Below, one piece after another: positions 11,576 to 17,536 of a stretch of DNA of 64,000 nt. The position numbers were made by a program, and so were the translations under genes. Source of the DNA: Naegleria lovaniensis (lineage: Eukaryota > Heterolobosea > Eutetramitea > Acrasida > Naegleriidae); NCBI RefSeq assembly GCF_003324165.1, contig NW_025407863.1, positions 328,060 to 392,059 of the forward strand. The letters run 5' to 3'. Below the pieces are notes generated by a model. The model was given only the letters and a program-made list of their open reading frames with translations, did not search any database and was not told where the DNA came from. Each line of letters begins with the position of its first letter. Positions within the stretch are counted from its first letter, which is position 1.

Positions 11576-11842
11576 ATTGATTTTAAAGATCAATATTTTG
11601 ATCAATAAGAATTATTTTCGTTCAATTGATCGACCAGAAAGAGACATGAAAATATTTTGCCGCCATTTTCTACTACAAGTACGTTATGGGTACATAACAA
11701 GAAAAAATAACGCTTTATCGCAGTAGACACACACGCTTGTCTGGATTTTGAATTTAATATATTGTATTGTTTTTTTCCATAGACTCATCGTGTAAAAATT
11801 TAAAAAACACCAAGATCACAATCATACACTTCATAATACAAC

Positions 11843-14800
11843 ATGGGTTGCGGAAATTCCAAATCGACCATCAAAGTAGTAGCAGAGAATGAGGGACAGG
11901 TACCAGAAACTCCTCGGCACAATGATGCTCCAACTTCTGCTGCATCAGATCCTCAACAACATCTTTCAACAACTTGTGTCAAACAAGGAAAGAAGGAACA
12001 GGGCTATTGCTACTTCTTTGGTCTTGATGCTGCCTCAAAGGCCAACCTCACTGAAGGTAATAAGGACATGAGAGAATTATTGGGAGGAAAAGGAGCTAAT
12101 TTGTGTGAAATGTTAAATTTGGGAATTAATGTTCCTCCTGGATTTACTGTGAGCACGGAGGCTTGTGAGAAGTTCTCCTCTCATAACAATATCCATGAGG
12201 GCGATGATTCAAAGGGCAAAGAGAGAAATCTTCCTGATGAAATCAAAACTGAGGTTGATGAATATTTGAAGAAATTGGAACTAGTTTCGGGTAAGAAATT
12301 TGGAGATTCTCAACAGGGTGATGAAAAGATTCTCTTACTGAGTGTCAGATCAGGTGCTGCAGTTTCAATGCCAGGCATGATGGATACAGTTCTTGACCTG
12401 GGAATTTGTGACAAGAATATTCATCAATTAATTCAAAACTTTGGAGGAAATGAGAGATTTGCTTGGGATTCTTATAAGAGTCTCGTTCAAATATTTGGTG
12501 AAGTTGTGATGGGCGTGAAGAATGAATGTTTTGAGGACAATATTAAGAAACAAAAAGAAAAGCGAGGAATTTCATCAGACGCTGAATTAAATCTTGAAGA
12601 AATTCAGCAAATTGTACAGGATCACAAGCTCACTATTTTTGAGCAAACTGGTGAAGATTTTCCTCAAGGTAAGTGATCGCACTCAGTTGTTTCTCGCATG
12701 CTTAATTCCATCACGAACTTTTCAAGACGTGTATCAACAATTGTACAGAGCCATTATTGCCGTTTTCAACAGTTGGCATAACTCTAGAGCTATTCAATAC
12801 AGAAAAATTCATTCCATTACCAAGCTCAAAGGAACTGCAGTTAACATTCAATCCATGGTGTTTGGAAATGTTGATGAAAAGTCCGGTACTGGTGTTTGCT
12901 TTAGTAGAAATCCATCCACTGGTGAGAACAAGTTTTATGGCGAGTACATGACCATGGCTCAAGGAGAACAGCTCGTTGCAGGAACAAGAACCCCAGAGAA
13001 AATTGAAACCTTGGAAACCAACTTCCCTGAATGTTACAAGCAACTTACTGAAATTAGTTCCAAATTGGAAAAGCATTTCAAGGACATTCAAGACATGGAG
13101 TTTACCATTGAACAAGGCGTTCTCTACATGTTGCAATGTAGAAATGGAAAGAAAACAGCAGAAGCAGCTCTTCAAATATATTGTGACATGATTGACGAAG
13201 GTCTGATCAATGAACGAGAAGCCATTATGAAAATTGATCCTTCTCAGCTCGATCAATTGTTGCATCCCTACTTGGATCCTGAGGAAAAGAGTAGACATGT
13301 ACCTTTGGCTCAAGGTTTACCAGCATCTCCTGGAGTTGTGGTCGGCAGAATTGCTTTTACAAGCGAGCAAGCAATTGCCATGTCCGCTGACAGAAAGGAG
13401 GCTGGTGACGTGATTTTGGTAAGAGAGCAAACATCTACAGAAGATTTAGCTGGTATGCATGCTTCTCAAGGATTCTTGACAAGTACTGGTGGTATGACTT
13501 CCCACAGCGCTGTTGTGGCTCGTCAACATGGAAAATGCTGTGTCTCTGGATGCAGTTTGCTCTATGTGTCGGGAGAGGACTCGTGTACGATCAATGGCGT
13601 CTTGTTCAAGCAGGGAGACGTCATTACAATTGATGGATCAACAGGAAATGTGTATGGAGAGGCCTTAAAAACAAGTCAGCCTGGCTTGACCAATGCTAAC
13701 TTTGTTCGAATTATGGACATTGAGAAAAAGTATAGAACCATGGGAGTTTACGCCAATGCCGATAGTGCTGCAGATGCAAAGAAGGCCCTCCAGTTTGGAG
13801 CTGAAGGCATTGGACTCTGTCGAACTGAGCACATGTTCTTTGAAAAAACTCGAATTATTGATATGAGAAGAATGATTGTCGCATCAACTCCAGAAAAACG
13901 TAACCAAGCCATCAGCACCTTAAAGGAATACCAGAGAGCTGATTTCCTCAGCATTTTCCATGAGATGGGACCAAGAAAGGTCACCATTCGTTTGCTAGAT
14001 CCACCACTCCATGAATTTCTCCCAGAAGAGGAAAAGGACATTGCAGAGCTTGCTGAAGCTTTGGAAGAAAATGTTCATGAAGTCTCTCAACTCGTGGCAC
14101 AATTGAAAGAAAAGAATCCAATGCTTGGGCATCGAGGTTGTCGTCTCGGCATTACATTCCCTGAAATTACAGTCATGCAAGTAGAGGCAATATTTGAGGC
14201 TGCATTTGAAGCTGCTAATAGCAATGAAGTTAAGGTTGACATTATGGTTCCTCTTGTCTCATCCATTCAAGAATTGTTGCATCAAAAGGAAATTATTGAA
14301 AAAGTTGCAACCAAATACTATGGTTTGAACGATCACAAGAAGAGTTTGGTTCATTACCGTGTGGGAACCATGATCGAAAGTCCAAGAGCAGTAATCATTA
14401 GTAAGGAGTTGGCTGGAATTGCTGACTTCTTCTCTATTGGTTCCAATGATCTCACACAAATGACCTTTGGTTTTAGTCGTGACGATAGTGGCAAATTCAT
14501 GAAAAGTTACATTGAGCACGACTTGCTCGAGCATGACCCATTTGAAGTGTTGGACCAGGAAGGAGTTGGAAGAAGTATTCAAATGGCCATTCAAAATGGA
14601 CGTGAAGTGAAGAATCATCTCACTGTGGGTCTGTGTGGTGAGCATGGAGGTGAGTCCGAATCAGTCAAGTATTTGCATCGATTAGGATTGAACTATGTCA
14701 GTTGTTCACCATTCAGAATTCCTATTGCAAGGTTGGCTGCAGCACAAGAATCTATCAAGAACTGGAGAAAGGTCGTATTTGTGTTAGGTAAGTACTTGAA

Positions 14801-15510
14801 TCGTCGTTGTGTCTTCTATTGGTGAAATATGCGCATTTCAATATGGATATCATTTGAGCAGGAGGTCCAGGTTCAGGAAAAGGTTAGTATTTTGATAGAG
14901 TTTCATGAATTGCTCTAACTTTTGTACTATTGACTGATTAACAGGAACACAATGCGCCAAACTGGTTGAACAGTATAAATTCGTTCACTTGAGTTCTGGA
15001 GACTTGCTGAGAGCAGAATCTAAGAAGGATACCGAGCAAGGACGAATGATTGATTCTTACATGAAAGAAGGCAAGCTCGTACCAGGTCAAGTGACCATTA
15101 ATTTGTTGAAACAAGCTATTTTGGAGCATCCAAACAAGAACACTACCTTCCTTGTGGATGGATTCCCTCGTGAAATGCATCAAGGTGAGTATTTTTCACG
15201 TACGGATGTTGTTGATACATTCATATTTCACCCATTAGCTTATGACTTTGAGCAATTCATTTGTAAGGGCATGTTTGTTCTGTTCTTTGAGTGCCCAGAG
15301 GAAGTTCTTGAGAAGCGTTTGTTGGAGAGAGGTAAAACTTCTGGCAGAACTGATGACAACATTGAGAGTATCAAGAAGAGGTTCAAGACTTTCCTTTCTC
15401 AAAGCTTGCCAGTAGTGGAGCATTTCAAAAAGACTGATCGAGTACGAACTATTGATAGTACAGGAACTCCAGAAGAAGTGTTTGCTCAAGTCTGTAAATT
15501 GTTTGACTAG
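11843..15510 (+). CDS. PPDK: Pyruvate phosphate dikinase fused to a C-terminal adenylate-kinase-type NMP kinase
   Basis: Five exons join with all introns in phase 1: 11843-12668, 12727-14787, 14862-14882, 14945-15184 and 15239-15510, giving 1,139 residues. Residues 1-7 are MGCGNSK, a classic N-myristoylation/palmitoylation signal, so membrane anchoring is predicted. PPDK (pyruvate + ATP + Pi to and from PEP + AMP + PPi) covers about 50-950. It has the ATP-grasp region (GGKGANLCEM, SVRSGAAVSMPGMMDTVLDLG), the phosphohistidine motif GGMTSHSAVVAR (His535) and the PEP-site motif GLCGEHGGE (Cys912). The C-terminus continues into a P-loop (GGPGSGKGTQ), SSGDLLRAE, VDGFPREMHQ and RGKTSGRTDDN, an NMP kinase. 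The Gln after GFPRE matches adenylate kinases rather than UMP/CMP kinases, which usually have Asn there. The fused kinase could balance AMP/ATP/ADP around PPDK. Fusion is inferred from in-frame splice sites; no stop intervenes once spliced. Confidence 0.85.
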
Positions 15511-15667
15511 TTAAGACGGACTGATTTCCTGCATTAGGTATAACAATAAATTATGGTAAAATTCATAGAAAAAGTCTTGCGATATTATTTCATATCAACA
15601 TAATAAATTATGGGAATAGTAAGAGCTATACATGAGATGTGTACATTTGAACACGACGTCGTGACAA

Positions 15668-17536
15668 TTAAGTTAAATCATTAGGGTCAAAGACATCGCC
15701 TCCGTCCTCATCTTCGTCCTCATCATCCTCGTGACGTGGCTTAATAGTTGAAGGAGGTTTTTGGTAATCATTATCGTCATTGAAATATTCATCAATTGCT
15801 TCACTGTGTTTTGTTGACACATATTGAATATCGTCTTCATCTTCATTATTTGTTTGAGATGATGGGTGTGAAGGTTGAGTGGGTTGCATGGGTACAGTTG
15901 GTGTTTTTGTTGTAGTAGGTGTTGAAGTAGAGGATGATGCTTTCACGTTTGTGCTGCTACTACTGCTTGCTGTTGGAGTTTTTGATTTTGAAGCTCCAGT
16001 CAACTCCAAATCATCGTCATCGTCGTCATCTCCCAAATCTTCATCATCTTCTTCGTTAAGTTCTCCATTTCGTCGTTGACGTTGTCTTTCTTCATAGGCT
16101 TCCTGTTGTCTTCGTTTGAGTTCTTCCATTTCTTCCTTTGAAGGTAATGGTTGAAATGCTGTTTTTGGTTTGTTTGCAGAAGCCTTTGATCCAGTGCTTA
16201 GGAATGTATTTGTAGGTCTGTTTGATCGTTTCTTGTTGTCACCATCGTCTTCTTCCTCGTCATCATCCACAGCGAAGAGTGAGGCTTTTTTACTAGCAAT
16301 GTTCTTCTTGCTGTTCGCCATTGCAGTTCCTTCACCTGGTGCATTGGGTGTTGAGATCTTTTTAGGTTTCTCTTTTTTCACTTGTGGTGTTGTGTCAAAG
16401 AGAGGGTTCAATGACAATGTCATGGCTATTTTGGCAAAGGGTCCTTCGAGGTATTTCAATAAAGAATTTTGTCGAGTGGACTCTAATAATTTTTCATCTC
16501 TATTTTGGAAGGCACTCACAAAAGATACTGCCAAATCACCTTCGTCGCTATTTGAAAAATTAGCAGCTCCACTTTCATTGGTAAATCTTGTTAGAGCATT
16601 CTCGGCAGCGACTGGGTCATCATTTCTGAGATACAAAACAATGATGGACAGCATGGTCTTTCTCAAATTATCGGCTTGATTCAAATTTTGATAAGCAATG
16701 AGCTGTGTTTCACAATTCTTGATTGCATCATCAAATCTCTTATACTTGATCAACATGGTATTATATTGACGCAACAAGTCGGTCGTGTTGTGATACTTTC
16801 CATTGAGACAAGACATTTCAATTCCTTCCTTAAATAATTCAAAACATTGTTCCAATCCACCTGGTTCTTTTTCCATTGCTTTGGCAGCTTTCACAAGTAC
16901 CTCAGCAGCACGATCGTTCTTTCCATCATCGGAGTAGACTCGTGCAGCATCTTTATAATTTTTTAATGCACTGATAAAGTCTTTGATGGACGTTTGATAA
17001 ATGTTGGCTGCCGATTCGTAGCATCTTCCGGCAGAATAGAGAATTTTGTTCTTTTCATGACAATAACCTGAAGTAATAATAATCATTTGGATTTGTTTTT
17101 TTACGGACGTGGTAGAAATTATCGTGTGATGAATAATAAATGATGATATTGGAAAGTATGTAATATTGCCATCAGTTAAAGTAGGAAAGTTTGAAAAGAA
17201 TTACATACCAGCACTGACATAACAATCAACAGCTTTGTTTTCCTTTCCTAAATTCTTGTAGGCAATAGCAGCCTTTTCATATTTTGAAGCAGCTCCATCC
17301 CAATCGGGGCTCCATCTGAATACACTTCTCTCAGATCTGTTCAATTAGAGTGAGTACAACAATATCATCATTCAATTTCAGTAATTATAATGATTTGATT
17401 CAATATTTTCGGACCACCAAATATTCATTCCGATGATGATAGAATATATTCCAACCGATTTTGTTATGAAGAAAAAAACGTACAACTTTTTTGCTTCCTT
17501 CTCGAGATTTTCGGCTTCCTGTAGTTTTTGAGACAT
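15668..17536 (-). CDS. Gamma-SNAP (soluble NSF attachment protein) with acidic C-terminal extension
   Basis: Three exons on the minus strand, 17484-17536, 17209-17336 and 15668-17067, join in phase to give 526 residues. The start MSQKLQEAENL matches the usual SNAP start. Donors are GTACGT and GTATGT. TPR-like helical hairpins fill residues 1-300 (DWDGAASKYEKAAIAYKNLGKEN, YESAANIYQ, YKDAARVYSDDGK). The gamma rather than alpha/beta type is suggested by spacing and by the NSPLFKY-like segment (QNSLLKYLEGPFAK). SNAPs recruit NSF to SNARE complexes for disassembly after membrane fusion. Family members are about 310 residues; here about 220 extra residues follow, rich in Lys, Ser/Thr and Asp/Glu and probably disordered. 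It is convergent with PPDK (157 bp gap). Confidence 0.82.

Follow-up and report, generated by a model that had tools for sequence, protein, structure and literature searches.

A predicted Naegleria lovaniensis gene joining pyruvate phosphate dikinase to a short nucleoside monophosphate kinase domain behind an acylation-type N-terminus

The window analyzed in this work, i.e., the whole 64,000-nt stretch of Naegleria lovaniensis contig NW_025407863.1, carries on its plus strand, at positions 11843-15510, a gene whose exons and splicing were predicted from the DNA. Joining of the five exons (826, 2061, 21, 240, and 272 nt) gives a 3420-nt coding sequence for 1139 residues without an internal stop, in agreement with the in-phase splicing proposed in the first-pass annotation. 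All four introns (58, 74, 62, and 54 nt) are of the GT...AG type and all lie in phase 1; their sizes are ordinary, since a median intron of 80 bp was reported for N. lovaniensis (PMC6125883). Exon 1 (11843-12668) encodes the MGCGNSK start, an extension of about 54 residues without a family match, and the first part of the nucleotide-binding domain of pyruvate phosphate dikinase (PPDK). It is followed by intron 1 (12669-12726; 58 nt, GTAAGT...TTCAAG) and by exon 2 (12727-14787), a single, unbroken open frame for the remainder of PPDK, including the phosphohistidine and PEP-binding domains, together with the junction and the first strand of a kinase domain (NWRKVVFVLG). Beyond intron 2 (14788-14861, 74 nt), there is a 21-nt micro-exon for the P-loop (exon 3, 14862-14882), intron 3 (14883-14944, 62 nt), exon 4 (14945-15184) with the NMP-binding part of the kinase and both of its base-recognition positions, intron 4 (15185-15238, 54 nt), and exon 5 (15239-15510), which encodes the short-LID segment RGKTSGRTDDN and the C-terminus and ends with the TAG stop. 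Two AATAAA hexamers within 15545-15607, starting 35 and 92 nt past the stop, are candidate polyadenylation signals. As regards the beginning of the chain, the MGCGNSK start, which had also been claimed earlier, is hard to avoid, because an in-frame TAA (11834-11836) precedes the ATG at 11843 with no AG between them.

Pfam searches with the deduced chain indicated PPDK_N, PEP-utilizers, PEP-utilizers_C, and ADK domains, each above its cut-off. The NCBIfam model TIGR01828 (pyruvate phosphate dikinase) matched residues 69-951 with 1167.6 bits, far beyond chance and above the equivalog cut-off of 843.45, and this part of the predicted protein is a complete PPDK. It shares 335 identical residues with PDB chain 9pzl over 659 aligned positions, as counted in seven of the nine alignment blocks, with query residues 172-374 left out. 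At all 16 of the positions checked, the residue is identical to that of 9pzl; they include the catalytic His535 (His455 of C. symbiosum), which the alignment of the checked positions places within GGMTSHSAVVAR at 13503-13505 (plus strand). The positions chosen are the catalytic His and residues of the nucleotide and PEP sites that are functionally relevant in PPDKs. Like the PPDKs of known structure (PDB 1kbl/9pzl, 2x0s, 1vbg), the N. lovaniensis enzyme is full-length and keeps the catalytic His, Thr, and Ser and the other checked residues, but it differs from them in having an additional C-terminal nucleotide kinase domain and an acylation-type N-terminus. Among the best 60 of 126 PDB chains, none covered both the PPDK and the kinase parts, as judged from the best stretch of each chain.

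The junction between the two enzymes (14757-14787, plus strand; IARLAAAQESIKNWRKVVFVLG) lies inside exon 2 and consists of a linker of about five residues (KNWRK), the kinase strand beta1 (VVFVL), and the first base of the next Gly codon, which is the first Gly codon of the P-loop. Exon 2 reads PPDK through SCSPFRIPIARLAAAQ-ESIKNWRK straight into VVFVLG, the first strand of the kinase, and the fact that one exon encodes the PPDK C-terminus and this strand without interruption is the strongest evidence for a true fusion. A separately made kinase would lack its first strand, since the latter sits in the PPDK exon. The first-pass annotation had named a start codon between the domains as evidence that would speak against a single chain. 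Between 14700 and 14945, no exonic ATG was found (the ATGs at 14829, 14843, and 14905 are all intronic), nor any AATAAA or ATTAAA. A scan for bacterial promoters and terminators across 14650-15000 gave nothing, which carries no weight here, as eukaryotic promoters lie outside its scope.

It is conceivable that two products arise from this locus, PPDK ending by intron retention and the kinase being made from a start of its own, or that the arrangement is an assembly artefact. A retained intron 2 would indeed stop PPDK at the TGA at 14823-14825. Separate PPDK and kinase genes are nevertheless unlikely, given the position of the junction and of strand beta1 in exon 2 and the lack of an exonic ATG or polyadenylation signal in the region scanned. 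Moreover, an unfused kinase paralogue (described below) can be modeled with introns at the sites and in the phase of introns 2 and 3; the exon structure thus looks genuine for a kinase gene. As to the assembly, the junction falls within one exon and its sequence is unlike both paralogues, which makes a simple repeat collapse unlikely. We consider two products or an artefact highly improbable; the presence of a PPDK-kinase fusion gene, with one spliced reading for both enzymes as originally proposed, is confirmed at the level of the DNA sequence, and the gene would be transcribed as one unit.

The assignment of the second enzyme is less straightforward. Profile searches identified residues ~957-1139 as a short-type nucleoside monophosphate (NMP) kinase domain with the P-loop GGPGSGKGT. 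The first-pass annotation had called it adenylate-kinase-type, and this description stands at the level of two residues only: the domain failed the AK1 equivalog TIGR01360 (207.9 bits, cut-off 284.1) and passed the UMP-CMP kinase family model TIGR01359 (231.1 bits, cut-off 207.6), so the adenylate kinase label depends on the base-recognition residues Ser987 (14995-14997) and Gln1049 (15181-15183). These two positions set the choice of base in such kinases. In the five PDB chains compared, the pair is Ser+Gln (3umf) or Thr+Gln (3adk) in adenylate kinases, Ala+Gln in the uridylate kinase 1uky, and Ala+Asn in the UMP-CMP kinases 1qf9 and 1tev. Ser+Gln of the fused domain corresponds to the AK1-type pattern (Thr/Ser plus Gln) and not to Ala+Asn, although the latter does not hold family-wide, as 1uky has Ala+Gln. 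The P-loop, the short LID, and the whole domain length are shared with all of these short-type kinases; what sets the N. lovaniensis domain apart is its fusion to PPDK and the combination of a UMP-CMP-family overall score with AK-type base-recognition residues.

These scores leave room for a chain whose kinase is a UMP-CMP kinase unrelated to PPDK chemistry, the fusion serving mainly as a membrane address for pyrimidine nucleotide kinase activity. Besides the TIGR01359 and AK1 results, the best PDB match of the domain (1uky, a uridylate kinase) and the family scores of the unfused paralogue, which likewise passes UMP-CMP kinase and fails AK1, point in this direction. On the other hand, both aligned UMP-CMP kinases have Asn where the fused domain has Gln, and Ala where it has Ser, and yeast uridylate kinase phosphorylates AMP too, which we counted against a pyrimidine-only function. 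We regard such a function as unlikely and, judging from these two residues, suggest that the fused kinase likely takes AMP as its acceptor.

To place the fusion in its genomic context, the assembly from which the window derives (30.69 Mb, 97 contigs) was searched. Its enolase matches PDB 7ugh, the N. fowleri enzyme, at 461 of 469 residues compared, as expected for a heterolobosean closely related to that species. PEP-utilizers_C matches were found at two places, the second being an unfused PPDK copy on the minus strand of contig C3 (about 925.8-928.7 kb). It aligns to the fused PPDK in three separate pieces (67% identity over 618 residues, 71% over 173, and 55% over 125), and the match of the fused chain to it reaches query residue 960 with three TAG codons read through. 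The copy ends with AAAQQSILSKK and a stop, with no kinase following; no ADK match was listed on contig C3 in the searches of the assembly, and no MGCGNSK start was seen at this copy. As assembled, its frame is broken near the start and in the nucleotide-binding domain, which could reflect either a decaying gene or an assembly or sequencing error.

The closest relative of the kinase part is an unfused gene on contig C11 (244 residues as modeled), 70% identical over 184 residues, while the remaining kinase matches to the fused protein are only 34-40% identical. Elsewhere in the genome, eight ADK-family matches were listed, two of them adjacent on contig C28, and the C11 gene is the only one modeled as an unfused enzyme. 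Its two introns (284 and 99 nt, phase 1) occupy the same sites as introns 2 and 3 of the fusion gene and flank the same 21-nt P-loop exon, the site of intron 2 corresponding to the first modeled intron of the paralogue; intron 4 is absent from its open frame. The presence of an unfused PPDK and of an unfused kinase sharing both P-loop introns suggests that duplicates of local genes probably gave rise to the fusion, in that a kinase gene, introns included, was copied behind a PPDK copy. The base-recognition pair of the C11 kinase is Ala+Gln, so that, since their divergence, one of the two kinases has undergone a substitution at the specificity position, where the fused kinase shows the adenylate kinase state. 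Residues 1-60 of the C11 kinase form an N-terminal extension with weak, sub-threshold Pfam matches to DUF5586 and Tex55, which presumably resembles a docking motif of flagellar proteins. Another ADK match lies in a 1315-residue open frame at about 312.5 kb of contig C30, which resembles the ciliary SPEF2/CPC1 type.

The first 21 nt of the coding sequence (11843-11863, plus strand) encode MGCGNSK, a candidate N-myristoylation site (Gly2, Ser6, Lys7) with a palmitoylatable Cys3. Its codon pattern, with Ser as TCN (AGY serines fall outside it), occurs once in the 30.7 Mb, and the looser MGCxxSK pattern gave 12 matches compared with 3 in a reversed control, three of the 12 having an in-frame TGA and some being near-duplicates. 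The chain starts with Met-Gly, has a small residue at position 6, and is accompanied in the genome by an N-myristoyltransferase (NMT) gene on contig C13 (217.7 bits). Hence, of the acylation-signal N-terminus described in the first-pass annotation, the MGCGNSK start was found together with an enzyme that could use it, while the acyl group itself is a motif prediction: the N-terminus is probably myristoylated and palmitoylated. Visual inspection of the C-terminal CKLFD gave no match to a peroxisomal PTS1. Acylation and membrane location of the fused chain are plausible in view of this motif and of a precedent in T. cruzi, in which, as described in PMC7082770, a form of PPDK is found at the glycosomal membrane, although that form, unlike the chain predicted here, is a cleaved, inactive 75-kDa one.

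Precedents for the fused architecture were sought in prokaryote, viral, and plasmid collections, which are not meant to hold eukaryotes. Among 80 prokaryote PPDK loci (the best 80 of 273), none had a kinase-domain match in a kinase-only tblastn (E <= 1e-3). The PPDK matches at these loci end at query residues 941-986; seven end past 960, the furthest (L081) at 986, and they run slightly into the kinase part. In viral contigs, three pattern matches were obtained, none of them a relative, with a single-protein query that reaches close relatives only. Plasmids gave 532 records with a match, and in none of the eight looked at did it extend past residue 961. In several spirochaete PPDKs (L042, L053, L064, L077, L088, L089, and L107), the frames extend by 94-190 residues as Lys/Ala-rich tails. 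No earlier report of a PPDK-adenylate kinase fusion was found in the texts of the literature searched, supplementary tables aside, and neither "dikinase" nor "adenylate kinase" occurs in the main text of PMC8296547, PMC4082629, or PMC6125883. Both enzymes are classical, and it is their fused architecture that seems new; it may already be present, unremarked, in annotated Naegleria proteomes.

PPDK interconverts PEP, AMP, and PPi with pyruvate, ATP, and Pi, and adenylate kinase interconverts two ADP with ATP and AMP. PPi-linked glycolysis needs adenylate kinase for a continued supply of AMP to PPDK. In line with the PPi-linked glycolysis invoked in the first-pass annotation, the sole phosphofructokinase (PFK) match in the genome is PPi-type, with 558.6 bits against the equivalog cut-off of 550, and carries the GGDD motif. 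Two loci each were found for H+-pyrophosphatase and for pyruvate kinase. Given the PPi-type PFK, the two H+-pyrophosphatase loci, and the activation of N. fowleri PPi-PFK by AMP described in PMC12203962, the setting is consistent with a PPi-linked glycolysis in which AMP serves as a shared signal.

In this context, we favor, with a probability of roughly 60%, a bifunctional enzyme in which PPDK is connected through a linker of about five residues to an AMP-preferring short NMP kinase, behind an acylated N-terminus, and in which AMP is handled locally. A loose metabolic partnership of two energy enzymes appears to have been built into a single chain, the likely role of which is local AMP/ADP exchange for PPi-linked glycolysis. 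The two active sites, if active simultaneously, would share AMP and ATP: the kinase domain would interconvert two ADP with ATP and AMP beside PPDK, or, in the gluconeogenic direction, would clear AMP, and AMP would stay close by as a result of tethering, possibly at a membrane, where the only PFK detected in the genome is PPi-type. Corresponding but separate proteins are known elsewhere. The coupled stoichiometry of PPDK and adenylate kinase, with the same two reactions, was written for Clostridium thermocellum in PMC7657619 and used in PMC8863071, and both enzymes were detected in glycosome preparations of T. cruzi (PMC7082770); in these organisms they form a pair of free proteins, whereas here they share one chain. 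PMC7657619 argues, however, that a 5-ATP glycolysis, taken as an entire pathway, would lack driving force and that 2 ATP are not obtained through PPDK in C. thermocellum in vivo, which calls for caution against equating the coupled stoichiometry with a net gain. The flux might just as well be directed toward PEP, and the preference for fatty acids reported for N. gruberi (PMC9928731) is compatible with either direction.

Two observations weigh against local exchange: with two pyruvate kinase loci, PPDK is not the sole route to pyruvate, and with eight other ADK-family matches, tethering may be unneeded. Both enzymes might also work in a fusion without metabolic consequence, since nucleotides would equilibrate freely. 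Such neutrality would be in keeping with the further ADK-family matches and with the existence of the unfused PPDK copy, albeit a frame-broken one as assembled. Yet the joined enzymes are mechanistically matched through their common use of AMP and ATP, a specificity position distinguishes the fused kinase from the C11 paralogue, and the checked PPDK residues are intact, so that we find a neutral fusion rather unlikely and retain the bifunctional enzyme with local AMP exchange as the preferred reading. A natural PPDK-kinase fusion would indicate directly, at the genetic level, that coupling of the two activities can be selected. As a single purified protein, it would allow measurement of channelling, of the direction of flux, and of what tethering contributes. 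It would also exemplify an enzyme of central metabolism that acquires a membrane address through acylation.

The P-loop micro-exon, common to the fusion gene and the C11 kinase, is in phase 1 on both sides, so that skipping would be in frame, with the loss of seven residues from the ATP-binding loop. An enumeration of splice alternatives around the P-loop, run with limited intron sizes and, for two-intron solutions, with GTRAG-type donors only, gave six one-intron and six two-intron solutions that stay open, and GGPGSGKGT is present in two of the latter. The intron solution 14788-14944 drops exactly the micro-exon. Such skipping would leave an intact PPDK and a dead kinase. It is tempting to imagine that the enzyme is tethered to a membrane, channels AMP, and contains a splice switch at the micro-exon, but this we consider very doubtful; if true, the strength of the link between PPi glycolysis and both the adenylate pool and the AMP activation of PPi-PFK would depend on splicing. 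Of the two solutions with GGPGSGKGT, that with acceptor 14858 inserts an extra Ala, and the chosen one, with acceptor 14861, matches the paralogue exactly. Downstream of the fusion gene, a convergent gene on the minus strand (15668-17200 of the window) encodes a SNAP-family protein, the C-terminal part of which is long and acidic.
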